From NCBI RefSeq assembly GCF_000317575.1, contig NC_019748.1:1628001-1692000 (forward strand): a DNA stretch of 64,000 bases. Reading direction: 5' to 3'. This document shows, in pieces, positions 22,637-64,000 of this stretch. How positions within the stretch are numbered: position 1 is the stretch's first letter; each line of letters opens with the position of its first letter. Source of the stretch: Stanieria cyanosphaera PCC 7437 (GTDB lineage Bacteria > Cyanobacteriota > Cyanobacteriia > Cyanobacteriales > Xenococcaceae). The notes below the pieces were generated by a model. The model was not told where the DNA came from and searched no databases. It saw only the letters and a program-made list of their open reading frames with translations. The translations under genes were made by a program, and so were the position numbers.

Positions 22637-22671
22637 TTAGTAATTAGTAATTAGTAATTAGTAATTACTAA
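22637..22671. repeat. Tandem heptamer array TTAGTAA x5
   Basis: Four exact TTAGTAA units at 22637-22664 are followed by a TTACTAA variant at 22665-22671, which makes the array end palindromic. It lies between convergent genes, so copy-number change would alter no reading frame. Confidence 0.85.
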
Positions 22672-50286: not shown

Positions 50287-51105
50287 ATGAAACCATATCT
50301 CGCTGCTGCTATTCAAATGACTAGTAAACCCGATCTAGAAAAAAATCTAATCGAGGCTGAAGAACTAATTGAACTAGCTGTGCGTAAAGGCGCAGAATTA
50401 GTAGGATTACCAGAAAATTTTGCTTTTTTAGGTCAAGAAGCTGATAAACTAGCTCAAGCAACTGTCATAGCTCAAAGAACTGAGAAATTCCTCAAAACTA
50501 TGGCACAAAGGTTTCAAATTACCATTTTAGGTGGTGGGTTTCCTGTTCCAGTAGTAGAAGATGCTTCTAAAGCTTATAATACTGCTCTGTTAGTTAACCC
50601 TAGTGGACAAGAACAAGTCCGCTATCAAAAAATCCATCTGTTTGATGTTGATGTACCTGATGGTAATACCTATCGTGAGTCTAGTACGGTAATGGCAGGT
50701 GTTAATTTGCCTTCTATTTATCATTCTGAAGATTTGGGAAACATTGGTATATCTATTTGTTATGATGTCCGTTTTCCTGAACTATATCGCCATTTATCGA
50801 ATAAAGGGGCAGATATTTTATTTATTCCCGCAGCTTTTACTGCTTTTACTGGCAAAGATCACTGGCAGGTATTGTTACAAGCTAGAGCGATCGAAAATAC
50901 TTGTTATGTGATTGCACCTGCTCAAACTGGTAACCATTATGAGCGACGTTATACTCATGGTCATGCTATGATTATCGATCCATGGGGTGTTATTTTAGCT
51001 GATGCAGGTCATCAACCAGGAGTAGCGATCGCAGAAATAAATCCTGAAAGATTACAACAGGTACGCCAGCAAATGCCTTCTTTACAACATCGAGTATTTG
51101 TTTAA
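50287..51105 (+). CDS. Carbon-nitrogen hydrolase (Nit/deaminated glutathione amidase-like)
   Basis: 272 residues. The nitrilase-superfamily triad is complete: Glu43 in LPENF, Lys in YQKIHLFD, Cys in SICYDVRFPELYR. The C-terminal region has YTHGHAMIIDPWGVILADAG. The closest match by eye is the Nit1/Nit2 group, which includes deaminated glutathione and omega-amidases. Follows cytidine deaminase on the same strand, perhaps as part of one transcript. Confidence 0.9.
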   Translation: MKPYLAAAIQMTSKPDLEKNLIEAEELIELAVRKGAELVGLPENFAFLGQEADKLAQATVIAQRTEKFLKTMAQRFQITILGGGFPVPVVEDASKAYNTALLVNPSGQEQVRYQKIHLFDVDVPDGNTYRESSTVMAGVNLPSIYHSEDLGNIGISICYDVRFPELYRHLSNKGADILFIPAAFTAFTGKDHWQVLLQARAIENTCYVIAPAQTGNHYERRYTHGHAMIIDPWGVILADAGHQPGVAIAEINPERLQQVRQQMPSLQHRVFV

Positions 51106-51332
51106 TCAAAAGTTGAGGATGTAGGTAGTAGAAAATGATAATGAGTTGTCAATAGTTTCAATTTTGGGAGCTAAATACTTAACTATAAATGTTATTTTTA
51201 TTACCTACTAACTCAATTATTATTTATATTTTTTTTGTTTTTTATTACTTTTGATGTCTTACTTTCGTGAGATGTTGTGATGGCATGAAACAATCAATAA
51301 TAAATAGAAGTTAAGAATTAGAGTATAAGCCC

Positions 51333-51536
51333 ATGCTAACTCAACCAATAGTTTCTTTAAGACAAAAAATAGAACAACTTGCCGATAAAGCATTCCATCA
51401 GCATCTGATCTCAGGCTATGGGGATGGAGAAAATATTAATGAGTATCAACTTGTTATTCATGGCAAACCTAGACACTATTCTTTAGAATATACCTATTCA
51501 TTTCTAAAATATCTTTTAGAAGAGCAAAATAATTAA
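51333..51536 (+). CDS. Small protein of unknown function, 67 residues
   Basis: Begins MLTQPIVSLRQKIEQLADK. A helical first half is followed by a strand-rich half with SGYGDGENINEYQLVIHGKPRHYSLE. The even composition and amphipathic helix suggest a real gene. I do not recognise the family. It stands alone, before the DUF3598 gene by 120 bp. Confidence 0.55.
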   Translation: MLTQPIVSLRQKIEQLADKAFHQHLISGYGDGENINEYQLVIHGKPRHYSLEYTYSFLKYLLEEQNN

Positions 51537-51656
51537 TTGGTTTTGTGTTTGGTTAATCTTGATTAGTAAGCAATTGTTATGAGCAAAATTATCAACCACA
51601 ATTGTTCGCAAAACATCGATAATAAACTAATGGTAATTTTACGCTGATTTCAATAT

Positions 51657-52475
51657 ATGCTTTCTCAATGGGATTGTTTGTTAAAAAATCTAGGGGAATG
51701 GCAAGGTTCATTTACTCGTCTGTCACCGCAGGGAGAAGAAACAGAAGACACGCCGACAATAGTTACTTTGGAAGGAAAAAATAATAATAAAACGGTTCAT
51801 CAAGTTGTCCGTTATCTTCCTGCTAACGAACCGCCCCGCGATCTAGTTTTAGAATATAGTAGTCTTAATACTACTATTTTGTTTTTTGAAAATGGGGCTT
51901 TTTCCCAAGGGTCAATGCAGTGGGCCCCCTATAGTAATTTTGGTGGTGAATTTGGTCTAATTGAAAGCGATCGCCGTTTGCGAATGGTTCAGCTTTATAA
52001 TACATCTAGTCAATTGGACCGCGTGGTTTTAATTAGAGAAAAACTACCTAACAGCAATACTCCCGAAAGACCACCCTTAACAATCGAACAGTTGTTAGGA
52101 CAATGGCAAGGAGAAGCGGTGACAATGTATCGCGATCTCAGAAATCCTGATACTTTTACTACTCATTTAAAAATAGAACAACAGGATAGTAGTCACATTA
52201 GCCAACAATTATCTTTTAATAATCAAACAGTTACTTCTCAAGCAAGAATTGAAAATTCTCGACTTCTATTTGAATCAGGTAGTTTACCTATTCAAATTTT
52301 GATGTTATCTGATGGTGCATCTTGTAACTGTCCGTTGGAAATTAAATCAGGTCATAATTTTGTTTTAGAGATGGGATGGTTATTAGAACCGAATCTACGC
52401 CAAAGAATTATTCGCAGCTATAACGACAAAGGCAATTGGGTTAATTGTACTTTAGTTACAGAAAAAAAAATTTGA
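51657..52475 (+). CDS. DUF3598 family protein
   Basis: 272 residues with the tandem beta-barrel (lipocalin-like) pattern: WDCLLKNLGEWQGSFTRLSPQG begins the first half, and LTIEQLLGQWQGEAVTMYRDL begins the second. FSQGSMQWAPYSNFGGEFGLI is a recognisable DUF3598 segment. It is common in cyanobacteria; the function is not known to me. There is no signal peptide. It is followed by an insertion sequence, which lies outside the gene. Confidence 0.8.
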   Translation: MLSQWDCLLKNLGEWQGSFTRLSPQGEETEDTPTIVTLEGKNNNKTVHQVVRYLPANEPPRDLVLEYSSLNTTILFFENGAFSQGSMQWAPYSNFGGEFGLIESDRRLRMVQLYNTSSQLDRVVLIREKLPNSNTPERPPLTIEQLLGQWQGEAVTMYRDLRNPDTFTTHLKIEQQDSSHISQQLSFNNQTVTSQARIENSRLLFESGSLPIQILMLSDGASCNCPLEIKSGHNFVLEMGWLLEPNLRQRIIRSYNDKGNWVNCTLVTEKKI

Positions 52476-52650
52476 TAGTTCAAAAGAATTAAAAGCAACA
52501 ATTAACAGGTTGTTTGAAAAGTATAGAATGTCATTCTGAGGTGAAGTAGCATTTTAGGATTTTGATAGTAAATTAAGATTTTTAAATCTACTTTGTTTCT
52601 TTAAAAATGATATTTTATGCCTTTGTTCAACTTTTCAGATGTCTTCTAAG

Positions 52651-52664
52651 CTCGACTTTATCCA
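52651..52664 (+). repeat. IS left inverted repeat, with target duplication CTAAG before it
   Basis: 14 bp, perfect partner of 54087-54100. The target duplication CTAAG is at 52646-52650. Confidence 0.9.
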
Positions 52665-52729
52665 TTGTGAGAGAAAAGTGAGGTCGAACAACGATACAGT
52701 ATTTTTGAGTGTATCGTTAGGCTCGAAGC

Positions 52730-54085
52730 ATGAGTTTTAATTTACCCGTTGAAATTATTAGTATTCTTTTACCTTTTGCTGGTCTGTTTTCTAAAAAGGT
52801 TTGGAACTACGTTCAAATCATGTTAATTGGTGCGATTTTAGCCACAGGAAAAAGAACTGTAACTTCAATATTAGAAGTGATGGGATTGTCTGCTGAGTCT
52901 AACTTCCAGAATTATCATCGGGTATTAAATCGTGCAGTTTGGTCAAACCTTCAAGCAAGCAAAATACTACTAACAACCTTAGTCATGACATTTATTCCTT
53001 GTGGCATAGTTGTCTGTGGAATAGACGATACGATAGAACGTCGAAAAGGCAAGAAAATAAAAGCTAAAGGTATTTATCGCGACCCAGTCAGGTCAAGTCA
53101 TAGTCACTTTGTTAAGGTTAGTGGTTTACGTTGGTTGTCAATGATGTTGCTTGTGGAAATCCCTTGGGCAAAAAAGGTTTGGGGATTACCGTTTTTTACA
53201 ACACTAGCTCCGTCTGAGCGTTATCATCAGCAATTACAACATCGACACAAAAAACTAACTGATTGGGCAAGACAGATGATTTTTCAAGTTAGACGATGGC
53301 TTTGGAATCGAGAACTGGTAGTAGTGGCAGATAGTAGTTTTACCTGTCTAGAATTACTTTCCTCAGTGAGCCAAACTACTTCTACTTCAATGATTACCCG
53401 TTTACGCTTGGATGCTGCTCTTTATGAACCTGCTCCATCAAGACCTACAGGTACTATGGGTCGTCCTCGTCTTAAAGGAACAAGATTGCCTAACTTGGAA
53501 CAAATTCTCATTGATGCTGATACACAATGGTCAAAAATTACACTATCTAATTGGTATGGAGAAGCAAATCGCCCAGTTGAAATGTCAACTGGGGTAGCTG
53601 TCTGGTATCATACTGGACTACCTGTTGTGCCAATTCGCTGGGTTTTAGTCCGCGACCCTTTAGATAAATTTAGACCACAAGCTCTGTTGTGTACCAATCA
53701 AAGATATCAATCTCAACAGATTCTTGAATGGTTTTCGCGTCGTTGGCAAATAGAAGTAACTTTTGAAGAAGCTAGAAGACACTTGGGTATGGAAACTCAA
53801 CGTCAGTGGTCAGATTTAGCAATTGCACGCACCACCCCTCTTATTTTAGGACTTTTTTCTCTAGTTACTCTTTTGGCTCATCGTTTACAAGCCAATTTTA
53901 CTTGGACTACTAGACAAAAAAGTTGGTATGTTAAATCTCTACCTACTTTTTCTGATGCCTTAGCTTTAGTACGCCGATTTCTGTGGGCTAGCACTTTTTC
54001 GATATCATCTAAACCTACTGACATCATAAAAGTCCCTCGTTCTTTATTCAATCGTTTGAGAGATCTGGCTATTTATGCTGCTTGA
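52730..54085 (+). CDS. DDE transposase (IS4/IS701-like)
   Basis: 451 residues, intact. Probable catalytic residues are Asp in VVCGIDDT, Asp in VVVADSSF and Glu in QIEVTFEEARRHLGM. NYHRVLNRAVWSN and RGKKIKAKGIYRDPVR-type segments are typical of a transposase group seen across bacteria that I place near DDE_5. The reading frame covers nearly the whole space between the inverted repeats. It has no partner gene. Confidence 0.93.
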   Translation: MSFNLPVEIISILLPFAGLFSKKVWNYVQIMLIGAILATGKRTVTSILEVMGLSAESNFQNYHRVLNRAVWSNLQASKILLTTLVMTFIPCGIVVCGIDDTIERRKGKKIKAKGIYRDPVRSSHSHFVKVSGLRWLSMMLLVEIPWAKKVWGLPFFTTLAPSERYHQQLQHRHKKLTDWARQMIFQVRRWLWNRELVVVADSSFTCLELLSSVSQTTSTSMITRLRLDAALYEPAPSRPTGTMGRPRLKGTRLPNLEQILIDADTQWSKITLSNWYGEANRPVEMSTGVAVWYHTGLPVVPIRWVLVRDPLDKFRPQALLCTNQRYQSQQILEWFSRRWQIEVTFEEARRHLGMETQRQWSDLAIARTTPLILGLFSLVTLLAHRLQANFTWTTRQKSWYVKSLPTFSDALALVRRFLWASTFSISSKPTDIIKVPRSLFNRLRDLAIYAA

Positions 54086-54086
54086 T

Positions 54087-54100
54087 TGGATAAAGTCGAG
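54087..54100 (-). repeat. IS right inverted repeat, with target duplication CTAAG after it
   Basis: 14 bp, perfect complement of the left repeat. CTAAG follows at 54101-54105. Confidence 0.9.
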
Positions 54101-54299
54101 CTAAGTATTTGAGCAAATCAATTAGTATAGAGCGCGTTATAATAAGGCTATTGCGCATTTTATTTTATTTACGCATTTTAATCGCTCAAATGCTTGCAGT
54201 AAAGCTTTTATACAAAAAGATTGAAGCATCAACAGCTTAATCAATAGGCTGCATTGAGTTTAATTGTACATTGAAATCATTAAAATAAACTAATCAATC

Positions 54300-55094
54300 A
54301 TGAAATCATTTGTACAGGGACTATTCAATCGATTAGGATTGAAAGTAATCAAGTATACTCCCTCACCTTATGAACATTTAGAAAAACAGCCTAGATACCA
54401 GAAAAACAAAGTAAAATTACTTGGGCATGATTTTAAGATTGCCGATTCATTTTCTTTTTTTCATAGTTATCGAGAAATATTCATCGATCAAATATACAAA
54501 TTTGACTCTCAATCAGAAGCACCAGTAATAGTTGATTGTGGCGCAAATTGTGGAACAAGCGTTTTATATTTCAAAGCAATCTATCCCAAAGCCAATATTA
54601 TTGCAATAGAAGCTGACCCTAATATCTTTAATATTTTAGAGTCGAATGTTAGCTCCGCTAACTGTGAAGATGTTACTTTATTGAATAAAGCTGTTTCCAA
54701 GGAAACTGGAACAATTGATTTTTTTAGTGAAGGTGCTGATGGAGGTAGAATACATCCTCTAGAAGACTCTCAAGCAAAGTTTGAAGTGGAATGTATCAAA
54801 CTTGATAAGTTGCTCGAAAAGCCTGTGGATTTTCTTAAAATTGATATAGAAGGTGCTGAAACAGAAGTTATTTGTGATGCCAATAAACTGGATAATGTTG
54901 CACAACTTTTTATTGAATATCATTCTTTTAAAGATACAGAACAAACACTAGGAAAGATTTTAGAGAAGTTATCTGATTCTGGTTTTAGATATTACATCCA
55001 TACACAATTTTGCCCTCAAAACCCTTTATTAGAAGAAAGTTTACAGCTTGGTATGGATTTGCAGTTAAATATTTACGCTAATAAAATAGCTTAA
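54300..55094 (+). CDS. FkbM family methyltransferase
   Basis: 264 residues with the FkbM SAM-binding pattern: VIVDCGANCGTSVLYFKAIYP, IIAIEADPNIFNILESNV, and the characteristic VDFLKIDIEGAETEVI. FkbM proteins methylate hydroxyls of sugars or secondary metabolites. The IS lies upstream and may separate it from an earlier partner. No neighbour reveals the substrate. A terminator-like hairpin follows. Confidence 0.9.
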   Translation: MKSFVQGLFNRLGLKVIKYTPSPYEHLEKQPRYQKNKVKLLGHDFKIADSFSFFHSYREIFIDQIYKFDSQSEAPVIVDCGANCGTSVLYFKAIYPKANIIAIEADPNIFNILESNVSSANCEDVTLLNKAVSKETGTIDFFSEGADGGRIHPLEDSQAKFEVECIKLDKLLEKPVDFLKIDIEGAETEVICDANKLDNVAQLFIEYHSFKDTEQTLGKILEKLSDSGFRYYIHTQFCPQNPLLEESLQLGMDLQLNIYANKIA

Positions 55095-55127
55095 ATTCAT
55101 TAGTTATCGAAAATTTAGCTTGAAATT

Positions 55128-55153
55128 CCGTCCTAAAAGGACGGATTTATTTT
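55128..55153 (+). terminator. Hairpin with following T-rich stretch
   Basis: CCGTCC (55128-55133), loop TAAAA, GGACGG (55139-55144), then ATTTATTTTT. It fits a terminator for the FkbM gene, reading either way. The stem equals the left-end stem of the first TnpB element (8226-8242), so it might also be a relic of such an end. Confidence 0.6.
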
Positions 55154-55163
55154 TCTTATTCGA

Positions 55164-55454
55164 TTAATCTTCTGAACGCATAAATTGAATAGTTGGTATT
55201 AAGGGATCTTCAACTAAAGCTATTCCTTGATAACCCCATCTTTGAAGTAGTCCTTTTAATTGATTGGCAGATGCAGATTCTACCATCAAGCGATCGCGTA
55301 AATTTTGACCATGAGTATTAAGATAACTCAGAGCATCATAATCTTCTTTGAATAACAATATATAAGTAGCTTCTGGTCGATCTTCATCTTCCTGTAAGCG
55401 AGCTACTAAATATTTACCCTTTTTTTTCGATATAACAACAAAGCCAGATTGCAT
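55164..55454 (-). CDS. Small conserved protein of unknown function, 96 residues
   Basis: Begins MQSGFVVISKKKGKYLVAR, a strand-rich start, then a helical part with DALSYLNTHGQNLRDRLM and LKGLLQRWGYQGIALVED. It has the charge pattern of a real protein. I do not recognise the family. Last gene before the integrative element on this side. Confidence 0.6.
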   Translation of the reverse strand: MQSGFVVISKKKGKYLVARLQEDEDRPEATYILLFKEDYDALSYLNTHGQNLRDRLMVESASANQLKGLLQRWGYQGIALVEDPLIPTIQFMRSED

Positions 55455-55889
55455 AAGCTTTTACCTATTTAATATTCTAATTGTTTCTCGCTAGTTTCTC
55501 ATTTTTCCTTTTAAACAACGATTTTATAGGCGTTTTAAGCAGTCATTCTGGTACTACAGGCAACAAAGGGAATAAAGTCACTTGTATTATACCGCTAAAG
55601 AGGCTAAACACTATATCTAACAAGGTTCTCATTCATTTCTCACATAAAGTTTGGTTGTTTGAATAGAGCAGTAAGTAAAACTTATAGTGGTAAATTTTAC
55701 CATAACTAGCTCATACAGCATAAAACTGTTCCTTCATAAGGGATAGATACATGAACATCATTTTTCTTTAAACTTATCAATCTGGTTTTTCAGACATCCT
55801 ACTTACCTTATTTGACATAATGACCAGTCTATGTTCTAGATTATGGTCATTTTTACTATATAAAGTTAGCTATAAGAAGTTGTATCGAT
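55455..55889. other. Non-coding stretch with hairpins
   Basis: No believable gene. Inverted repeats: TGGTAAA/TTTACCA around a single T at 55688-55702, and AATGACCA/TGGTCATT at 55819-55851, followed by TTTT and possibly a terminator. The small reading frame 55481-55666 looks random. Confidence 0.5.
55819..55854 (+). terminator. Possible terminator hairpin
   Basis: AATGACCA (55819-55826) pairs with TGGTCATT (55844-55851); inner TCTA/TAGA also pair; T-run follows. Confidence 0.4.
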
Positions 55890-56021
55890 TCTGTAAAGCT
55901 TGCTGTATTGAACCTAGAATGCGATTCTAGGTGGGTTAAATCCTTCAGGTATATGATACCGATACCTCCATCGGATTTGACAAAATTGCCTGATGGTTGT
56001 ATAATCACCCAGCTTTACAGA
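55890..56021 (+). ncRNA. Candidate structured RNA (132 nt), multi-branched
   Basis: It is closed by an 11-bp perfect stem, TCTGTAAAGCT (55890-55900) with AGCTTTACAGA (56011-56021). Inside are a 9-bp hairpin ACCTAGAAT-GCG-ATTCTAGGT (55912-55932), and a 9-bp stem GTTAAATCC/GGATTTGAC (55935-55943, 55973-55981) with one T-G wobble that holds a further AGGTAT/ATACCT hairpin (55947-55967). TGAT/ATCA (55991-56007) may form another arm. The wobble favours the plus strand as RNA. It matches no class I recognise. An alternative is a single-strand replication origin. Confidence 0.5.
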
Positions 56022-56081
56022 TTAGACATGAATTTAAAGAGTTAGTGAAGAGATAAATTTACTAGCTTTTTTGGCTTACTC

Positions 56082-56131
56082 GTGAGGACATACCCTAAAA
56101 TATTGCAATATTTTTATATACGCTTACTCTT
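56082..56131 (+). repeat. Element direct repeat, copy 1
   Basis: GTGAGGACATA, then the palindromic core AAATATTGCAATATTT (56098-56113), and CTTACTCTT at 56123-56131. It matches copy 2 at 58994-59051 in sequence and order. It overlaps the original stop of the adjacent minus-strand gene (56124). Confidence 0.65.
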
Positions 56132-56716
56132 GCCCTCTTAAGAACTTTCGTTTAGCAACAGAAATAGCTAAATCATGAGCTTCTGTTAGGTCGTCTACAA
56201 ATAACTCAATCACTTGCTTCTCACAAAATGCGATCGCGACGCGAGGAGCGAACCCCTCGCTTTTAGTCCACTAGCTTCGGGGATACGATTACGAGCGATA
56301 CTTTTGTCCCCATCAATCAAGTCCCATTGTTCGTTCATTTGTTTAGCCGTCATACCGAACAAACCCTTATAGACATAGTTAGTCCAGTTAGCGTACTCGT
56401 GCCATTTGTAACAACCCTGTTGGGTCAAGAAGTTGGTGTATTGATTCCTGACAGGAATACCTCCTAATCTTGAGTTGAGCCAAGTGGAAAGGTTAATGCT
56501 ATCCGCTTGAGTGTATTGCCCTTTTAATGCTGCGTAAGCTTCAGCATATAGTCCCTTGGCTGCGAACCACTTCAGGAAGTCTATTACTTTTCTTCTGGCT
56601 GGTTTTCTGAGTTGTCCTGGATCGAGACTTACATCACCAGCTAAATCTACCCAATCTGATGCTTCGATAACTATGTACTGATTATTGTCATTTCCTAAAA
56701 TTCCGACCGCTCTCAA
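56124..56716 (-). pseudogene. Element protein of unknown function, frame-broken by a 23-bp insertion at a HIP1 site
   Basis: From the TTG at 56716 the frame runs to 56210 (168 residues) with segments EASDWVDLAGDVSLDPGQLR, ARRKVIDFLKWFAAKGLYAE and YKWHEYANWTNYVYKGLFGM. The tail after SIARNRIPEASGLK is out of register. Removing the 23 bp at 56235-56257 joins it to a second frame that continues AFCEKQVIELFVDDLTEAHD and ISVAKRKFLRGQE and ends at 56124. The result is 189 residues, with a total length divisible by three. The insert is palindromic and lies within GCGATCGC. The family is unknown to me and probably plasmid/phage-related. Confidence 0.75.
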
Positions 56717-57158
56717 ACACTGATTCTTTCATTAACCAACTAGACAACACTTGTTGAGGTAGTTCTTCTCAGACCTCTAGTTGCTAGAGCATACTTGTTC
56801 GGCTTGCTTCTGAAAAATAAAACCATCCCTCTTGCCCACAAGAAAGAACAGATTACGTGACTGAAGTGAGTGTCAAGAGCTTGATACGCAGTATTTATGA
56901 AGTAACTCTGGACGGGAACAAGGGAACTAATATAATCTCGTTCCCTAGGGCAAGAGGGATGGTTAATACTACTTGTCCTAAGAATGCCTTAGTTCTTACC
57001 ATTAGTAGCTTTTATGTCGCTTCATGTAAAACCTTGAATTACCACAAGTAAGGATTGTTAGTCAAATACGAATTTGTTATAAAAAAGTAGGTTTTAGATA
57101 AGTAGAACCCAGACAAAAAAATAAGCCCTCACAAGAAGGCTATTGCTCTAACAAACCT
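56717..57158. other. Non-coding stretch between two element genes
   Basis: It holds CTCTAG-TTG-CTAGAG at 56775-56789 and the 144-bp inverted-repeat structure described separately. A 64-residue frame (56857-57051) falls across that structure and is not believed. Confidence 0.5.
56821..56964 (+). ncRNA. Candidate structured RNA or inverted-repeat unit closed by a 17-bp perfect stem
   Basis: AACCATCCCTCTTGCCC (56821-56837) is perfectly complementary to GGGCAAGAGGGATGGTT (56948-56964), spaced by 110 bp. Inside are GTGTCAAG/CTTGATAC (56870-56887, with one G-T pair) and GGGAAC/GTTCCC (56922-56945). The G-T pair again favours the plus strand. It could be an RNA, a double-strand origin, or a MITE. 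I see no clear target duplication. Confidence 0.5.
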
Positions 57159-58372
57159 ATGATAAAAGATAATTCTCAAGAAAACAATCTTGTTACAAAT
57201 TCCCTCTCGGAAGGATTAGCTTGTAACACCCAGTAACACCCAGTAACACCCAGTTAAACCTCCCAAAACATCCTACCCTTACTACTACTAAACTTACTCA
57301 AGCTACTACCAGTAATAGGTTACAGCTATCACCTACAGTTAATAGTCCCATAGGGGTACTTTACTCTCACTCTGACTACCTAGCTATTAGTGCTACCAAC
57401 CTACCTGAAGAACCTTTTCAAGACCTACTTAAGCGACTAGATAGTAAATATATCACTACAGAAAAACCTGAACATTGGTCACGTGGTACTAGAGCTAGGA
57501 ACTATGAGTATAAAATGTCATCTCCTAAAGGAATAGCAGGAGGATTCAATAAAATAGCCTCTAAAGACTTCGAGAATAGCTCTAATACTTATGATGTTGC
57601 CATCGACATTAAAGGGTCTTATTTGGCAAATTTAACGCCAATAGAGCAATATAATTTAGTTTCTTATCTAGCGAGAGTAGAAGGATGTAAAATTGGTCGT
57701 TTTGACTTAGCGATTGATGATTATAGTTATCAAAAAATACCTCTTGAAGAAATGAAAAAAGCTTACAAGGAAGGTAATAATTTTGGATTCAAACATCATT
57801 GGGATACAGGTCTTAATGAGAATGGAGAAATAAAAGGTTCTAGAACTGAATATTTTGGAGGAAGAACAAGTGACAAAAAGGTTAGGGTATATTCTCACGA
57901 AAATAAATGTATGAGATTTGAAGCTCAGCTAAGAGGAAAACAGGCAGAATCAGCAATTCAAAACCTAACTAGTTTGACAAGAACTACAGAAAGTGATGAG
58001 GAGTGGAATCTAATAATCCAAAAAACTCTTGGTGGTATAGCAGTAGGAATAATAGATTTTAGGGACAAAAATAAGCTAAAAAATTTAGGTAAGGCTAGTA
58101 GAGATAAGACTAAAAGATTACCTTTTTGGCAACAATTTATTGATGAAGTAGGAAGTGTGATTAAGTTAAAACCAACAACAAATAAAGTCAAAAATGAAGC
58201 TCTAGAATCAAAAACAAAATGGTTTAACAAGTATGCTATAAAAACCCTTGCTCAGTTAGCTTTAGTTTACGGGGATGAATATGTTTTAGAGTCAATAAAA
58301 CAGGGTAAAGCCTCACTTACTCCTAAAGACCACAAAGAGATTGAATACTGGAAAAGCGAGATAAACAGTTAG
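57159..58372 (+). pseudogene. rep: Rolling-circle replication initiator (Rep_trans-like), frame-broken by a 10-bp triplication
   Basis: Reading from the ATG at 57159 gives 25 residues (MIKDNSQENNLVTNS...) and stops at TAA 57234, within three tandem TAACACCCAG units. After the units the main frame is open from 57227 to 58372 but has no ATG, GTG or TTG before 57515. With a single unit the two frames join into one 397-residue protein. The body has YSHSDYLAISATNLPEEP, RFDLAIDDYSYQ and TEYFGGRTSDKKVRVY, which match replication initiation factors (Rep_trans) of rolling-circle plasmids. A start at 57515 would cut off the first part of the domain. Confidence 0.8.
57224..57253 (+). repeat. Three tandem copies of TAACACCCAG at the rep 5' end
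   Basis: Exact units at 57224-57233, 57234-57243 and 57244-57253. They sit inside the rep coding sequence, and two extra units shift its frame by 20 bp. They may also serve as iterons. Confidence 0.9.
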
Positions 58373-58386
58373 TTATTGCTCTGAAG

Positions 58387-58414
58387 CTATGCCTACGGTA
58401 ATTCTTAGGCATAG
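58387..58414. other. Hairpin after rep
   Basis: CTATGCCTA (58387-58395) and TAGGCATAG (58406-58414) pair perfectly around a 10-nt loop, starting 14 bp after the rep stop. There is no T-run, so it is not a classical terminator. Confidence 0.6.
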
Positions 58415-58571
58415 TCAAAACTTATTACCATAACTGCACAACAAGCATTATTTAACTGACGGATACTTTAAGTTTCCTATATCATTTAGCATCAACTGAA
58501 AACATTCATACTCTTTTCTCTAACCTCTAGAGGTCGTGGTTAAACTCGCAGCTTTTCTTTCTAGGAAAGGC

Positions 58572-58710
58572 TAGACCTTGTGGAAAAGATTATGTCTCTA
58601 TGTAATCGTTGTAATCAAGCTACCAAGCTAAAATCAACAATACTTTTTGCCCCAAGGTCTATAAACCTTCCTTTAGAACGGAGATGTATGCTCATCCTAC
58701 GGAAGGTCTA
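58572..58710 (+). ncRNA. Candidate RNA with mutually exclusive pairings
   Basis: TAGACCTTG (58572-58580) can pair with CAAGGTCTA (58653-58661), or as TAGACCTT with AAGGTCTA (58703-58710). The latter strand also overlaps GGAAGG (58701-58706), which can pair with CCTTCC (58666-58671). It is seen as sequence complementarity only; no fold was computed. Confidence 0.35.
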
Positions 58711-58993
58711 GAGTTTCCGATTAAGCTATTAAGGGAAATAACTATAGTGTTCCTAAGAGAACCCCTAAAGATTGAATCAACGCTTTATGACGCGATTATT
58801 TTCCGAAGGTCAATGACTTTGTACGCAGACGTTAAGAAAAAAAATGCCTGTTAGGGTAGTATACAAATATCAAGCTCAGATTGAAGAAGCTTTTGGACAC
58901 CTTTCGTTTCACCAAGAAAGTGTCGTAAACTCAGTTGGAGCAAGAAATAAAGCTAAATATGCCTTACTCTCATGAGTTTTATCTAGAGTCTGG

Positions 58994-59051
58994 GTGAGGG
59001 CATAGGGTAAGATATTGCAATATTTAGAGTTATACTTTTACCCTTACTCTT
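58994..59051 (+). repeat. Element direct repeat, copy 2
   Basis: GTGAGGGCATA, palindromic core ATATTGCAATAT (59012-59023), then CTTACTCTT (59043-59051). Same order and orientation as copy 1 at 56082-56131. Confidence 0.65.
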
Positions 59052-59148
59052 ATTTTTTTTTACTTATTACTTTTTAGTACTTTTTGCTTAGTATTTACTC
59101 TTAAAAAAAATAGCCCTTTGAGAGCTATCTTTGTTACTTGTTTATTTG

Positions 59149-60627
59149 TTATCTACTTGATAGTTTTTCTAGTAATAACCTGATTTGTTTTTTCAATTCT
59201 TGATTTTCTAATGTAAGCTCTTCTACTCTTAACCTAAGCTTTTCTACTTCTGATAATTCAGGTTTTTGCTGTATTTGTTGTTGGTATCTTTGAGCGGATT
59301 CAATTAAGCTACTAGTTTTAATCCCTTTGTTGTAGGTCTTCTCTTGCATCTCCAAACTATGTCCCATGTAGTCTTTCATGTCTAATGGGTTCATGTTATC
59401 TCTACGACCTCTCATAGCGTAACTGTGCCTCAAGTCGTAGGGAACGAAATCTATTTTTCGGGGAATTCTTTTGCGTTTTTCTCCTCTACAGTATGCCGTA
59501 AAGTAAGCAAGAAAAAAGTCTTTTTGCTTGCCGTTTTCAAAGGTAGGTAATTCAGGGACTTTTTCTAGCTCAAATAATTCTATCCATTCATAAGGATGAG
59601 GCATAGGCTGTGTTCTTTCTCCTGTTTTTCCATAAGTATAGATAGCCTTACCTTTGTTACTTGGGTCATTAAAAGCTGGCAAAATGATATTTTCGTTAGG
59701 AACTTTAAAAGGTTGAGTGAGATTTTTAATATTTAATACTTCATGGTTGCGTAGTCCATAAACAGCCATCATTCCATACATCCAAGCGTATAAATCTTGA
59801 CGTTTGGCTTTTTTACCGTTTCGTGCCTGATAATATTTAATACTTTTCCAGCCTTGAACTATTTCTTCATCAGATAACTCTCTACCAACTCTTGATTCAA
59901 CCTTTGCTTTACTCTTAAATTTATTAACATCAATATTAAGTGAATGATAAGTAGTAAAAGCTTTTATGTCTGATAGGCGAGTCTCATAACTCCTACTACC
60001 TGGTTTATAGCCTCCCAATATATTTTTAATCATCTCTTCAGTTAGAGGCTTATCTTGAGGCAATCGATTAAAGATAGGATTAAACCGACTTTTATATCCT
60101 CTCTCGCTTTTATGCGCTGCCTCCTCGGAACTGTAATCATGAGTAGCCCGAAAATGAGCTTCAAACTCTTCAATTAGTTCTTTACAGGTTTTAGTTTTAG
60201 CTAGCTGCTGCTTGAGATGCTCTGGCAATTCTCCTTTAATCCAACAGGCGTAATTATCCCAAGTAAAAGTACCAGATTCTAGCTCTTTAGCTACCTGTAA
60301 GGCTACCTCTAAAGCACTGTTAACCGCTTCTGGACTATCTGCACATTTAGACACGCCCAGGTATTGAGCTACTGAATATTTGCTTCTCATCGCCTCTCCC
60401 ATAGAACCGTCATATTGCTTTTTAGTCGTGAATTGTAAGTATAGATTCCCTTTAGTTTCAGTAATGCTGACTGGTCTTGATTTAAGCGTCTCTTTAGCTG
60501 CTTTGAGTTTTTGCTCAAACTTAGTCCTTAACTCTTTCTCTCTCTTTTCTTGGTCTTTTTTAGCCCATAAGTAAGAGCCATCACGCCCTTGAGGTTCGTA
60601 TTTAGGTACGTCTAAAGTGTTTCTCAC
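59149..60627 (-). CDS. Tyrosine recombinase/integrase
   Basis: 492 residues. The N-terminal about 270 residues comprise a charged start (QEKREKELRTKFEQKLKAAK) and a core-binding domain (CKELIEEFEAHFR...). The catalytic domain follows with Arg293 (YGLRNHE), Arg400-His401 (YDLRHSYA), His423 (YMGHS) and the nucleophile Tyr432 (KTY). The C-terminus is a coiled coil (LRLRVEELTLENQELKKQI). All four classes of catalytic residue are present, so it is likely functional. It would integrate or excise the element. No excisionase gene is seen nearby. Confidence 0.9.
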   Translation of the reverse strand: MRNTLDVPKYEPQGRDGSYLWAKKDQEKREKELRTKFEQKLKAAKETLKSRPVSITETKGNLYLQFTTKKQYDGSMGEAMRSKYSVAQYLGVSKCADSPEAVNSALEVALQVAKELESGTFTWDNYACWIKGELPEHLKQQLAKTKTCKELIEEFEAHFRATHDYSSEEAAHKSERGYKSRFNPIFNRLPQDKPLTEEMIKNILGGYKPGSRSYETRLSDIKAFTTYHSLNIDVNKFKSKAKVESRVGRELSDEEIVQGWKSIKYYQARNGKKAKRQDLYAWMYGMMAVYGLRNHEVLNIKNLTQPFKVPNENIILPAFNDPSNKGKAIYTYGKTGERTQPMPHPYEWIELFELEKVPELPTFENGKQKDFFLAYFTAYCRGEKRKRIPRKIDFVPYDLRHSYAMRGRRDNMNPLDMKDYMGHSLEMQEKTYNKGIKTSSLIESAQRYQQQIQQKPELSEVEKLRLRVEELTLENQELKKQIRLLLEKLSSR

Positions 60628-60813
60628 TTGTTTCTCAAAATCTTTAATCGTAGTATGTTTGTAAAATTAAAATCAATGAATTAAAAGGCTTTTCAGCATT
60701 ATACTACTAGTAACTAAATATTTACCCTCGACTTTTGAACGAATTACATAATTGATGTTATTGGTCATTGGTTAATGAAAGCAATACTTAGGCGACTGGG
60801 AATGGACAAATTT

Positions 60814-61866
60814 TTATTTCAAATCTTCTAACTTAATCCTTGGATCGACTGCTTTTAATAATAAATCAGCCAGTAAATTACCAATAATCAACATTGCTGC
60901 ACCCATCATTAAGCTTGCCATAACTAAATATAGATCTTGAGCTTGGACTGCTTGTAAAATTAAACGACCTAAACCAGGCCAATTAAAGAAAAATTCGGCA
61001 ATAAATGCACCACTAAGCAAACTAGCAAATTCAAATCCTAACAAAGTAATTAAAGGATTGATCGCATTACGTAAGGCGTGAACATAAAGTACTTTATTTT
61101 CTGGTAATCCTTTGGCGCGAGCAGTTTGAATATAATCTTGTCTAAGCACATCGAGTAATTGTCCTCTAGTTAGACGTTGTAATCCTGCAAAACTGGTGAT
61201 ACTCAGTGCCAATGTCGGTAAAATCATGTGCCAACCAATATCAAGTATTTTACCAATAGGAGATAAATCAGCATGATTAATGCTAGTCATTCCTCCGACG
61301 GGAAACAACGGAGAAGTATTTTGTGCTATGCTTAACAAAGCCAAAGCAGTTATGAAGCTAGGAAAGCCTTGACCTAAATAACTTAGAACTCGTAAGATTT
61401 TATCAATCAAAGTATTTTGTTTAACTGCACTGACAACTCCCAAGGGAATCGCGATCGCCCAAGTGATCAGAATAGATGCGATCGCTAGCAACAAAGTTGC
61501 AGGTATTCTTTCAATTAATAATGAAGAAACTGGTCGAAAATAAACAAAACTTGTACCAAAATCAAAACGAGTAACCACTCTAACTAACCAACGCCAATAT
61601 TGAACAATTGGAGGTTGATCTAAGCCAAATTGTTGCTTCAACTCTGCTAGTCTTTCAGGTGAGATTTGAGGATTTCCTTTTAGAGTATCAAGATAATCTC
61701 CAGGAGCTAGTTGAATAATTACAAAACTGAGTGCAGAGGCTAAAAAAAGCGTCAGTAATGCTTGTAGTAATCTTTTAAGAATATAAAGCGTAGTTTCATT
61801 GGTTAAGAAATTTCTGAAACTAATCGCTCTCAAATTATCAACAGCAGAATCCCTACTAGAAGTCAT
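60814..61866 (-). CDS. ABC transporter permease, oligopeptide/dipeptide type (DppB/OppB family)
   Basis: 350 residues, six or so membrane spans after a 28-residue soluble start. LKRLLQALLTLFLASALSFVIIQLAPGDYLDTLKGNPQ and FGLDQPPIVQYWRWLVRV fit DppB. The EAA loop is DYIQTARAKGLPENKVLYVHALRNAINP, and the C-terminus has GLGRLILQAVQAQDLYLVMA and VDPRIKLEDL. It is a second, divergent copy beside the one at 22809. The partner permease and ATPases are not in the window. It starts 12 bp after the DUF3120 gene. Confidence 0.92.
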   Translation of the reverse strand: MTSSRDSAVDNLRAISFRNFLTNETTLYILKRLLQALLTLFLASALSFVIIQLAPGDYLDTLKGNPQISPERLAELKQQFGLDQPPIVQYWRWLVRVVTRFDFGTSFVYFRPVSSLLIERIPATLLLAIASILITWAIAIPLGVVSAVKQNTLIDKILRVLSYLGQGFPSFITALALLSIAQNTSPLFPVGGMTSINHADLSPIGKILDIGWHMILPTLALSITSFAGLQRLTRGQLLDVLRQDYIQTARAKGLPENKVLYVHALRNAINPLITLLGFEFASLLSGAFIAEFFFNWPGLGRLILQAVQAQDLYLVMASLMMGAAMLIIGNLLADLLLKAVDPRIKLEDLK

Positions 61867-61878
61867 ATAAAAACCTGA

Positions 61879-62583
61879 TTAGGCGAAATAAGCAGCAATC
61901 CAAAAGAGACTGTCAACTAAGATTGTACTCAATACTGCTCCAGCAAATGCCCACCAATGAAGCTGGCTTTTTTGTAAAGACCACAAGCTAAAACCTAATA
62001 AAATATTGACGAGTACTATTGCCCAACTAATTCCCCAAGGAGTTTGCATCTGAGCTAAGGCTTGATGTAAGATTGGCGAGGCTAAACTGGGTTCTACTGT
62101 CATTATTTTCCGCCAATAGGGAATTAAATCTGTTAAATAAAAATATGAATCTGTAATCGCAGTGCCTAATAATGAACCAAGATAAAATAAATTGCCAATT
62201 AATCCCCATCTGCGCCACAAACACCAAATAGCAAAAGGTACGCCAATCGATTCAATCGGGAGATGTATTAATGGTTCGTATCTTAACCAACCCCAATAAA
62301 TTGAACCTGCTAACCAACTCCAACTAAATCCTAACAATAAGTCTCCCCAATACCGAGTTTTTTGACGCTGATAAAGAAATCCTCCCAAAAGAATCCAAAC
62401 TACAGTTAGCCAAAGACTAAACCAAGGAAAAAGTCTAACTAAAGGTGCTTGAAAAAATACTGGCACAGATACTAAAAAAGAAGCAGCAAAAAAAACTAAC
62501 CAAGCTTGACGTTCTTGGTTTTGCGATAACGATAAGCTCAATTCAGCTTTTTTTAGGGAATAATTAGAAGTAGAAGAAGTCAC
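61879..62583 (-). CDS. DUF3120 family membrane protein
   Basis: 234 residues with about six hydrophobic spans. RQAWLVFFAASFLVSVPVFFQAPLVRLFPWFSL and the tail IPYWRKIM are typical of DUF3120, which is found in cyanobacteria. WLRYEPLIHLPIESIGVPFAIWCLW marks the core. The function is unknown. It shares the strand with the permease gene immediately downstream. Confidence 0.85.
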   Translation of the reverse strand: MTSSTSNYSLKKAELSLSLSQNQERQAWLVFFAASFLVSVPVFFQAPLVRLFPWFSLWLTVVWILLGGFLYQRQKTRYWGDLLLGFSWSWLAGSIYWGWLRYEPLIHLPIESIGVPFAIWCLWRRWGLIGNLFYLGSLLGTAITDSYFYLTDLIPYWRKIMTVEPSLASPILHQALAQMQTPWGISWAIVLVNILLGFSLWSLQKSQLHWWAFAGAVLSTILVDSLFWIAAYFA

Positions 62584-62814
62584 AGGCGAAATTAAGTATA
62601 GTAAATATAATTTGGCAGACAGATTTTAATTTTCTTAATTTATCTTTACCTTGCTTTAAAGTATCACAATTTTTGAGTTGACATCTTGAGAGTTTAGGAT
62701 TTTTAGTTTTATTTAATGTCTTTAGTTAAATTGAATGAGATATAATTAATAGCTCAAATAAGGTTATTATCCAATCAGATGCTCAAGGAGAGATCAATTA
62801 CTCAAAAAAACAAA

Positions 62815-62855
62815 GGGTTCGCTTGCTAAAGCGAGCGGTCAGCTTTGCTAGCATA
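62815..62855 (-). repeat. Dispersed repeat with AGCAAAGCTGACCGC core (second copy)
   Basis: GCGGTCAGCTTTGCT at 62835-62849 is the reverse complement of the core found at 45661-45675, with one mismatch. An imperfect inverted repeat CGCTTGCTAAAGCGAGCG is adjacent. Confidence 0.5.
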
Positions 62856-63055
62856 TACGTGGTCGAAGTTGCTAAGAGCAAAATTAACTCAAAAAATTCT
62901 CGATTTTGGCAAAAAAATAGTAAATAAATTCAAAAATCATTAATTATACTCCTAAAATTTTTTTTACTCAGGAGATATTTTGCTAAATAGAAGAGAAATT
63001 ATCTCAGATTGCAAACCTATGTTAGTCTAAATATTAAGTAAAATAATGAAAATAA

Positions 63056-63084
63056 TTGTCCAAATTTTTTTTGAGCAATTATAG
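63056..63084 (+). promoter_or_regulatory. Possible sigma-70-type promoter
   Basis: TTGTCC at 63056-63061 and TTATAG at 63079-63084 with a 17-bp spacer, about 108 bp upstream of the 47-residue gene. Weak match to the consensus. Confidence 0.3.
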
Positions 63085-63191
63085 TCAAAATAAACCAAAA
63101 CCACGAATAAACCCTCGGGTAGAGGTAAAAAAAGCAAAATAGCTTAAAGATGTAGATATAAAAAAAGTATTTTGTAGGAGTCGTCAGTTTG

Positions 63192-63335
63192 ATGGACTAT
63201 TTAGAAAACTTGCTTGAGAAATTAAAAGAATGGGCGCAAAAGCTAATCGAAATCCTCTTAGGACCAGAGGCTGAACCAGAAGCGGAACCTATTCCAGTAC
63301 CAGTAAACGAGCCTCATCGCGGTCGTTATCGTTAA
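63192..63335 (+). CDS. Small protein, 47 residues, amphipathic helix plus Glu/Pro-rich tail
   Basis: It starts ATG at 63192 with TAGGAG about 11 bp upstream. The first half (MDYLENLLEKLKEWAQKLIE) is an amphipathic helix. The second half is GPEAEPEAEPIPVPVNEP followed by HRGRYR. The biased pattern and ribosome site favour a real gene. It is followed 28 bp later by aroQ. I do not recognise a family. Confidence 0.6.
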   Translation: MDYLENLLEKLKEWAQKLIEILLGPEAEPEAEPIPVPVNEPHRGRYR

Positions 63336-63363
63336 TTAATTATTAAATTGGTTAGCAAAAATA

Positions 63364-63813
63364 TTGTCTCAGAAAAAAATCTTGGTCTTAAATGGCCCTA
63401 ATTTAAATTTATTGGGACTGCGAGAACCTCAAATTTATGGTTCTGTTACTCTTGAGCAAATAGATCGTGATCTAGTAGAAGAAGGAAATAGGCTGCAAGT
63501 ACAAGTTAGTTGCTTGCAGTCCAACCACGAAGGCGTTTTAGTAGATGCCATTCATCAAGCTAGAGAACAGTCTCAAGGTATTTTGATTAATGCAGGAGCA
63601 TATACTCACACCAGTGTAGCTATTCGAGATGCATTAGCAGGAGTGAAACTGCCTACTGTAGAAGTTCATCTGAGTAACATCTATCAAAGAGAAGCTTTTC
63701 GTCATCATTCTTACATAGCACCGATCGCGATTGGACAAATTAGTGGTTTTGGTGTAGAAAGTTATCGTCTGGGATTGCAAGCCTTAGTTCATCATCTGCG
63801 AAATCAAAAATAA
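63364..63813 (+). CDS. aroQ: 3-dehydroquinate dehydratase, type II
   Basis: 149 residues; the start is TTG at 63364, because [22 protein letters not shown] is the standard N-terminus and no ATG precedes it. The enzyme dehydrates 3-dehydroquinate in the shikimate pathway. Catalytic features are the Tyr in [40 protein letters not shown] and [19 protein letters not shown]. It shares the pathway with aroH at 41472, though they are not linked. Confidence 0.97.
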
Positions 63814-63827
63814 AAATTTTATCTGTT

Positions 63828-64000
63828 TCAATTCCACAGGTTACGCCACCAATGAACAGGATTAGGATCAGTGTTCACAAATTTAATCTGAGCTAAAATT
63901 TCTTGAAGATTCCAACCTGTTAACCTGGCTAAGTTTTCTGCTTCTGTTTGCTGTCTATTTCTGACACTTCTTTGATATTCCTTACCTGCCTCACAAGTGA
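63828..64000 (-). CDS. Partial gene, C-terminus only, function unknown
   Basis: The minus-strand frame is open from the window edge to a TGA at 63828-63830. It gives 56 residues containing RQQTEAENLARLTGWNLQEI and ending DPNPVHWWRNLWN. The window cuts it off upstream. It is convergent with aroQ across 14 bp. I do not recognise the family. Confidence 0.55.
   Translation of the reverse strand, partial: TCEAGKEYQRSVRNRQQTEAENLARLTGWNLQEILAQIKFVNTDPNPVHWWRNLWN

Follow-up and report, generated by a model that had tools for sequence, protein, structure and literature searches.

A gene for a replication initiator (rep), part of an element integrated in the chromosome of Stanieria cyanosphaera PCC 7437, contains three tandem copies of a ten-nucleotide unit near its 5' end, where each family locus that retains this end has one. 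The unit is probably the loop in which the initiator, Rep, nicks DNA at a double-strand origin situated inside its own gene. On the balance of the evidence below, the extra units were rather likely born in rolling-circle replication driven by Rep at this origin, and they broke rep in this copy. Nicking at the site, the source of the units, and the loss of function are, of course, the parts of this account that we infer. Decay, marked by a scar that replication left behind, is the safest reading of the array. What is new here is that the repeat unit is probably the nick loop of an origin, and that such a change recurs in a second replicon, the cyanobacterial plasmid pCYLM01.

The window is the whole stretch of DNA that was analyzed, 64,000 nucleotides (G000:C1:1628001-1692000) from a genome of 5.54 Mb in 6 contigs. 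All coordinates are positions within it unless another record is named. The array and the pieces of the gene around it are these:

57159..57236, plus strand: presumed true N-terminus of Rep, now a 25-codon frame; it aligns with the Met and first codons of 7/7 distinct homologues.
57212..57261, plus strand: presumed double-strand origin hairpin, with arms at 57212-57221 and 57252-57261 and the array as its 30-nt loop.
57223-57254, plus strand: the array, G + TAACACCCAG x3 + T; in the phase of the presumed nick, three AACACCCAGT units with GT before each.
57227..58372, plus strand: the remainder of rep, a Rep_trans (PF02486) initiator, out of frame with its own start.

The three units of TAACACCCAG are perfect and occupy 57224-57253. 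The maximal array is GTAACACCCA repeated 3.2 times, with a TRF score of 64 (top of 37 rows, the runner-up having 63). From ATG 57159, the frame reads MIKDNSQENNLVTNSLSEGLACNTQ, 25 residues, and ends at a TAA (57234-57236) inside the second unit. The Rep frame runs open for 381 codons, from 57227 until a stop whose last base is 58372, and ATG 57515 is the earliest ATG, GTG, or TTG in it; ahead of this stand only ATA 57350, ATT 57386, and ATC 57452, with CTG absent. Repeat, stop, open frame, and start had all been described in the original prediction, as had the rule that only one copy gives a full protein. Frame arithmetic bears this out: One unit keeps the rep frame and three do not. More than three also fail, since each unit brings a TAA into the ATG frame. 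Thus, the three-unit allele should, as its sequence reads, yield no full-length Rep, because the gene is open with one unit only, because a start at Met 57515 loses a conserved segment, and because the frameshifts that would repair this array and that of pCYLM01 run in opposed directions.

Such arrays are rare in this chromosome. This is the sole perfect array with at least three copies and a period of 8-12 in 464 kb, made up of the window and 400 kb sampled from its chromosome (twenty 20-kb stretches); the other arrays found in the 464 kb were heptamers and one 14-mer. The sampled 400 kb hold no period-10 array of 2.2 copies or more. Nowhere else in the genome do two TAACACCCAG units stand side by side, even with up to 2 mismatches allowed.

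That the open frame encodes an initiator is indicated by its match to PF02486 (53 bits against a curated cut-off of 29.6, E 4e-14, residues 155-353 of 381); PHROG_453 is also matched. The nearest solved structure by sequence is PDB 4cij, a Geobacillus Rep (E 4e-7 with profile A1), with 4cwc and 4cwe borderline at only E 0.02-0.04. In alignments, the window's RVY stands opposite RFY in 4cij, and opposite RVY or RIY in those three A1 homologue rows that extend this far. The tyrosine of this R-x-Y region is what we take to be the catalytic residue of Rep_trans. A structure prediction from the single sequence was unusable (mean pLDDT 36.6).

The gene does not stand alone. It lies between two short repeats, together with these features:

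55405..55420, no strand: attL core ACTAAATATTTACCCT, the left end of the element; a 16-bp direct repeat at the collinearity break with the sister genome G011.
60713..60728, no strand: attR core, the right end, a 16-bp direct repeat; core to core, 5,308 bp.
59149..60627, minus strand: tyrosine-type integrase, 492 aa (PHROG_1 integrase, E 2e-9).
56210..56716, minus strand: an ORF of 168 aa with weak PHROG matches only (E 2.7e-5 and 4.5e-4).

G011 offers the empty site: one copy of the 16-bp core (14/16 bases identical) and no element. It is collinear with window positions 51000-64000 save for 55405-60728 and a transposase-bearing insert to the left. Because the 16-bp repeats mark both ends and G011 has the site in single copy, the comparison tells us that the 5' end of a small conserved gene has taken up an integrative element of 5.3 kb, which encodes a tyrosine integrase and a pT181-like Rep_trans initiator. 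Here, then, are an integrase, ends made of direct repeats, and an empty site, the features by which integrative elements are recognized. In G011, the att site falls within the 5' end of the small gene (MTDHINYVIRSKVDGKYLVARL...); the gene in the window gets new first codons from the element. The integrase has no match in Pfam or NCBIfam. Its RNHE, LRH, and GHSLEMQEKTY (residues 293, 399, and 422) are presumably the tyrosine integrase motif. A tblastn search with it gave matches of 24-28% identity in 6 of the 11 homologue regions searched. In the family genome G015, there are three copies of rep, two within a 5-kb block, 95% identical, that also has an integrase.

No conjugation genes were recognized in the 5.3-kb element, no tRNA that might furnish an att site lies within the 64-kb window, and Rfam at gathering thresholds gave 0 matches over the window. 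The insert to the left (52505-54127), with its transposase at 52730-54085 (DDE_5), is missing at this place in G011. A 32-nt direct repeat (56082-56113 and 58994-59025, 84%, palindromic core ATATTGCAATAT) flanks rep inside the element. This pair, D2, was considered for the ends of the element and rejected, the G011 break being at the 16-bp repeat instead; it may provide arm sites for the integrase or a secondary att.

Is three the ancestral number of units, or is one? Relatives of this Rep are few. Genome-wide, the protein has one match at E<=0.001. In samples that overlap, homologues occur in 9/27 genomes of the taxonomic family (E<=1e-10, with the window's own counted) and 10/291 of the order (1e-12), and profile matches in 2/386 of the phylum (1e-20). 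The window protein found no relatives in genome_contigs and viral_contigs, and A2 as query gave no conserved stretch; three other Rep proteins used as queries found 1, 2, and 0 loci. The family thus supplies 11 loci besides the window (L002-L012), nine with a 5' end, seven of these distinct. Counts exclude L007 and L011 (without 5' end), L068 (5' end missing), and copies: L077 and L079 (of L078, on one contig), repeats of the G015 sequence, and L143 (of L140). Also excluded are L146 and L147, 94-97% identical to L063.

All nine loci with a 5' end have one unit-equivalent and a single frame from a Met aligned to 57159. Homologues that start at the position of Met 57515, or relatives that always have three units with an unrelated N-terminus, would have spoken against the original prediction; the nine loci include neither. 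Homologues begin with M[ILV]xxNxxxSN, which aligns with MIKDNSQENN of the window. The peptide at the site is SNT in four of them (G017, G015, G013, and G024), SKT in G019, WNT in G008 (its start, Met 53 of a longer open frame, being chosen by motif), SST in G007, and CNT in the window. As one unit and the aligned N-terminus are found in all nine, the three-unit state is, on this comparison, derived.

The repeat is read as an origin for three reasons: Synonymous constraint in the gene is greatest there, the site resembles the hairpin origins of Rep_trans replicons, and it is placed in the loop of a hairpin. The constraint was measured on a codon alignment of the seven distinct homologues, with the window left out. 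Codons 21-27 are its top window, with 68 same-codon pairs versus 25 expected (z 10.9), a figure whose strength lies in ranking within the gene, as the test treats sequence pairs as independent, yet four of the seven homologues are 54-69% identical. Over the whole gene, 1204 same-codon pairs compare with 896 expected. At the origin site, ACC is kept in 7/7 homologues, and AGT and CTA each in 6/7. The array lies at this place, and constraint and motif together would put the origin at codons 21-25.

The hairpin itself is weak. In the window, it has 8 Watson-Crick pairs, 1 G-T pair, and 1 mismatch, a score reached by 3/300 shuffles. In G019, its stem is 9 bp and, there alone, GC-rich, and 0/300 shuffles are as good; the hairpins of the remaining six distinct homologues do not stand out from shuffles (43-263/300 reach their score). 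In ten other Rep_trans replicons, a rep-strand hairpin lies at the 5' end of rep or shortly ahead of it, and the TAA in its loop belongs to a (C/G)TAA(C/T)A motif. These replicons are pCB, pCYLM01, two from Paenibacillus, two from Lactobacillus, one from Ligilactobacillus, inovirus Dulem 64, G491, and G705. The hairpin of pCB is AACCCC[ATTTGGTAACAC]GGGGTT and that of pCYLM01 is ACCCCG[CTCAGTAACA]CGGGGT. Where the site is translated with rep, the peptide is GNTG or SNTG in pCB, pCYLM01, pFIS3754-01, Paenibacillus NAIST15-1, and G705, whereas G491 and the second Paenibacillus plasmid have TNRG; Fischerella pFIS3754-01 also has a hairpin, one that the script did not call. Three further Rep_trans loci (L066, L067, and L072) have no such hairpin near rep, and L069 has one downstream of rep. 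In pCB, an in-frame ATG 39 codons upstream of the annotated rep start puts the origin hairpin within rep (L038 970-1086), and the annotation may be too short.

An origin inside the initiator gene is a known oddity of the pT181 family. PMC5703833 places the double-strand origin of that family within rep, and PMC9371924 places its CT'AA nick in a hairpin loop. The window motif is GT'AA, unlike the CT'AA of the ICEs and pT181, and its arms are not GC-rich. The window site is thus no CT'AA in a GC-rich hairpin, the pattern expected of pT181-like origins. Both pCB and pCYLM01 have GTAACA too, but in GC-rich hairpins. Origins of cyanobacterial Rep_trans elements could be sought by a sequence tag, GTAAYAC encoding an NT-type peptide close to the N-terminus of Rep.

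How might one unit become three? With the origin inside rep, the DNA nicked by Rep would also be translated. Leading-strand synthesis would overrun the nick by about 10 nt. If the end were joined with the overshoot kept, or if Rep cut ten bases farther on, at the second GT, the gain would be exactly one unit. The 10 nt from the presumed nick, GT'AACACCCAGT, would in this manner go from one to three tandem copies. By arithmetic, tripling would widen the loop of the hairpin from 10 to 30 nt and both shift and stop the rep frame.

In the pT181 family, 10-12 nt are synthesized past the nick (PMC5703833); PMC4797284 gives an overshoot of 9-11 nt, in one legend, or 10-12 nt. An overshoot of 9-12 nt, as in pT181-type replication, fits both the 10-nt length of the unit and its phase, GT'AA. 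Rolling-circle replication is a likely source because the unit is the presumed nick loop and because a duplication in the same phase recurs in pCYLM01.

This recurrence deserves inspection. pCYLM01 (L060, EF221636) is a free plasmid of 2175 bp, from a Nostocales strain according to its record. At 785-806, it has a 10-nt duplication in nick phase, GT'AACACGGGGT'AACACGGGGT, 2.2 copies in all. Translation from ATG 618 of the plasmid runs into a TAA in copy 2, the last residues being LLTPLSNTG*. Its Rep is in a different frame, open from 775, with an annotated start at 946. The plasmid is not found at E<=1e-5 by the window Rep as query, and its Rep is 27.6% identical to that of pCB. Such a duplication is present in 2/19 distinct origin sites (the window, the seven family members, and eleven other replicons).

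Short tandem repeats arise everywhere, of course, and the second case must be held against a background. Perfect arrays with a period of 9-12 and at least 1.8 copies number 70 per 400 kb of the window's genome; with at least 2.2 copies, there are 3 in 400 kb. Scaled to the roughly 4.4 kb scanned at the other 18 sites, these rates predict about 0.8 loose and 0.03 strict arrays anywhere, and about 0.01 loose and 0.0004 strict ones starting within one base of the nick, numbers that are a guide only, as the sites differ in composition and were not randomly drawn. A two-copy tandem near a rep start is therefore unremarkable; with this guide, it is phase, length, and 2.2 copies that make pCYLM01 special. 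Two other small tandems lie away from the origin site: AGCAACC x1.9 near the rep 5' end in G013 and, in G705, AATTTTAGC x2.0 some 100 nt upstream of the gene. A pattern scan of viral sequences returned GTAACAC-type tandems in 59 contigs; none of those with identical spacers resembled a rep 5' end by eye in the rows printed. A targeted literature search found no precedent for nick-site duplications or phase-variable rep genes; absence from print is not claimed.

Ordinary decay is the rival to be taken most seriously, if not the one to bet on. Here, rep sat idle in the integrated element, and polymerase slipped twice on a GT...GT microrepeat; the position at an origin is coincidental. GT does recur 10 nt downstream of the nick even in origins with one unit, so that simple slippage on a 2-bp repeat gives the identical product. 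Broken copies are also common in this family: Besides the window, G024 is frameshifted, G006 is truncated at its 5' end, and G013:C34 is a fragment. (G007 diverges close to a contig end.) Further, loss of a nicking enzyme can be selected. PMC3715440 reports that replication of excision-defective ICEBs1 lowers viability, and that nicK-null suppressors, in preliminary unpublished work, rescued such cells. However, plain decay does not predict that the array should begin exactly at the presumed nick and have the length of the overshoot. Nor does it predict that length, phase, and effect on the frame recur in pCYLM01, when arrays of at least 2.2 copies are so rare. A point against our own reading is that pCYLM01 is a free plasmid with a seemingly broken rep, a state that plain loss of function leaves unexplained.

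This plasmid invites the view that the array is a reversible switch, where the number of units within a population turns rep on (one unit) or off. The original prediction had offered a decayed gene, a switch by slippage, and the making of a short N-terminal peptide. The nine relatives with one unit and one frame uphold a broken rep; copy-number change over time, reversible slippage, and a function for the 25-residue peptide found no support. We regard the switch as unlikely, although it has attractions. The frame is open with one unit only, and the remainder of rep is intact (381 codons, PF02486 over its cut-off). The free plasmid pCYLM01, recorded with an off-type allele, must obtain Rep from somewhere, and tandem nick sites would allow Rep itself to delete units. 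Against this, the one-unit state is found in 9/9 family loci with a 5' end. Three 10-bp units are, moreover, few for fast slippage.

A bolder version of our own reading, entertained speculatively and with comparably low expectation, joins the switch to the origin. In Rep_trans replicons with an origin inside rep, rolling-circle rounds that terminate wrongly would add or remove exactly the stretch of about 10 nt made beyond the nick. As 3 does not divide 10 and a TAA comes with the unit, each such round would turn rep off. Given tandem nick sites, Rep from a sister copy could nick at one unit and finish at another, recutting the array to one unit and making the switch self-limiting. If true, a switch born at the origin would explain why a free plasmid, pCYLM01, is recorded with an off allele.

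The origin might also lie elsewhere, the array being unconnected with it. There is one candidate:

56921..56946, plus strand: rival origin candidate AGGGAAC[TAATATAATCTC]GTTCCCT, the sole CTAA-loop hairpin on the element's rep strand.

By sequence, this hairpin matches the textbook origin better. It has a 7-bp stem and CTAA at the edge of its loop, and only 0.1 such hairpins are expected per shuffled element strand. It is nevertheless a rather improbable origin. The same script found no counterpart at this place in the homologues, and codons 21-27 are kept beyond the needs of the protein. Around this hairpin, upstream of rep, is a perfect 17-bp inverted repeat (56821-56837 and 56948-56964, 110 bp apart).

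Still more doubtful is the notion that full-length or active Rep is made after all, from Met 57515 or by ribosomal frameshifting. The PF02486 match does fall after Met 57515, and, according to a figure legend of PMC5703833, pT181 Rep can do without the residues that its origin encodes. But a start at Met 57515 was rejected: It loses the HxD[YW]L segment kept in 5/5 A1 rows, and homologues start at the Met aligned with 57159, with 0/7 distinct homologues needing the later one. Programmed frameshifting was rejected too, the needed shift being -1 in the window, +1 in pCYLM01, and none in the homologues; as the directions differ between window and plasmid, no shared signal can be at work. By eye, 57225-57236 contains no slippery heptamer. 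Finally, sequencing or assembly error, to which short tandem repeats are prone, is very hard to credit, as pCYLM01, an unrelated record, shows the same kind of change, and a 32-bp array (here in a 5.04-Mb contig) is short compared with usual reads.

Birth of the units in rolling-circle replication thus remains the preferred reading, and known systems help to place it. The pT181-family plasmids (RepC, RepD; PF02486) likewise have a Rep_trans initiator; they have an origin in rep and a nick in a hairpin loop, both of which are presumed for the window. The element of the window differs in being integrated with an integrase, in having GT'AA for CT'AA and a weak hairpin, and in having its site tripled and rep out of frame. 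Closer in taxonomy are Synechocystis pCB (pCB2.4) and Cylindrospermum pCYLM01, with a cyanobacterial Rep_trans, a GTAACA hairpin loop, and an N-terminal (G/S)NTG. These are free plasmids, however, and the unit stands once in pCB, twice in pCYLM01, and three times in the window; the Rep of pCB is 26% identical to the window Rep over 65% of the latter. The ICEs with MOBT relaxases (ICEBs1, Tn916, and ICESt3) are also integrated elements with a Rep_trans-type enzyme and, at oriT, a TAA nick, theirs in a GC-rich hairpin. Their NicK also drives rolling-circle replication (PMC9371924 and PMC3715440). No tripled oriT appears for these three in the portions of the literature consulted. Phase-variable contingency loci share a repeat in the 5' coding region, a unit not divisible by three, and a stop in each unit. 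In contrast to them, the array has three units only, its unit is probably a functional DNA site, and 9 homologous loci have one.

Should termination errors write 10-bp units into rep, replication would leave a readable scar that disables its own initiator. Rolling-circle elements could in this simple way become fixed in chromosomes; the scar would perhaps also act as a brake on copy number.

A further likeness to the pT181 family would be a predicted antisense RNA against the rep leader, suggested by two features:

57159..57187, minus strand: predicted antisense promoter TTGTTT-17-TATCAT, overlapping the rep start codon.
57115..57141, minus strand: predicted antisense terminator, a 7-bp stem followed by TATTTTTTTG, at -18 to -44.

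The general promoter scan did not list the first of these. Yet TTGCT[AGT]-N17-TA[TAC]CAT is present on the minus strand in 7/7 distinct homologues, and codons 3-9 form a second block of constraint (z 7.3), which fits a minus-strand promoter across the start codon. At the place of the terminator, 6/7 have a hairpin and a T-run; it is missing in G008. The promoter-like and terminator-like pair suggests a short RNA of about 40 nt. The antisense RNA of pT181 is 87 nt (PMC5703833).

Two repeats of other kinds were noticed along the way. In G491:C3 (L077-L079), a Rep_trans gene recurs every 2,461 bp; the contig is probably a small rolling-circle plasmid whose copies were joined head to tail, either by the assembly or as a real multimer. 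Within the window, positions 22637-22667 hold a TTAGTAA heptamer array of 4.4 perfect copies, and similar period-7 arrays recur in the sampled chromosome.
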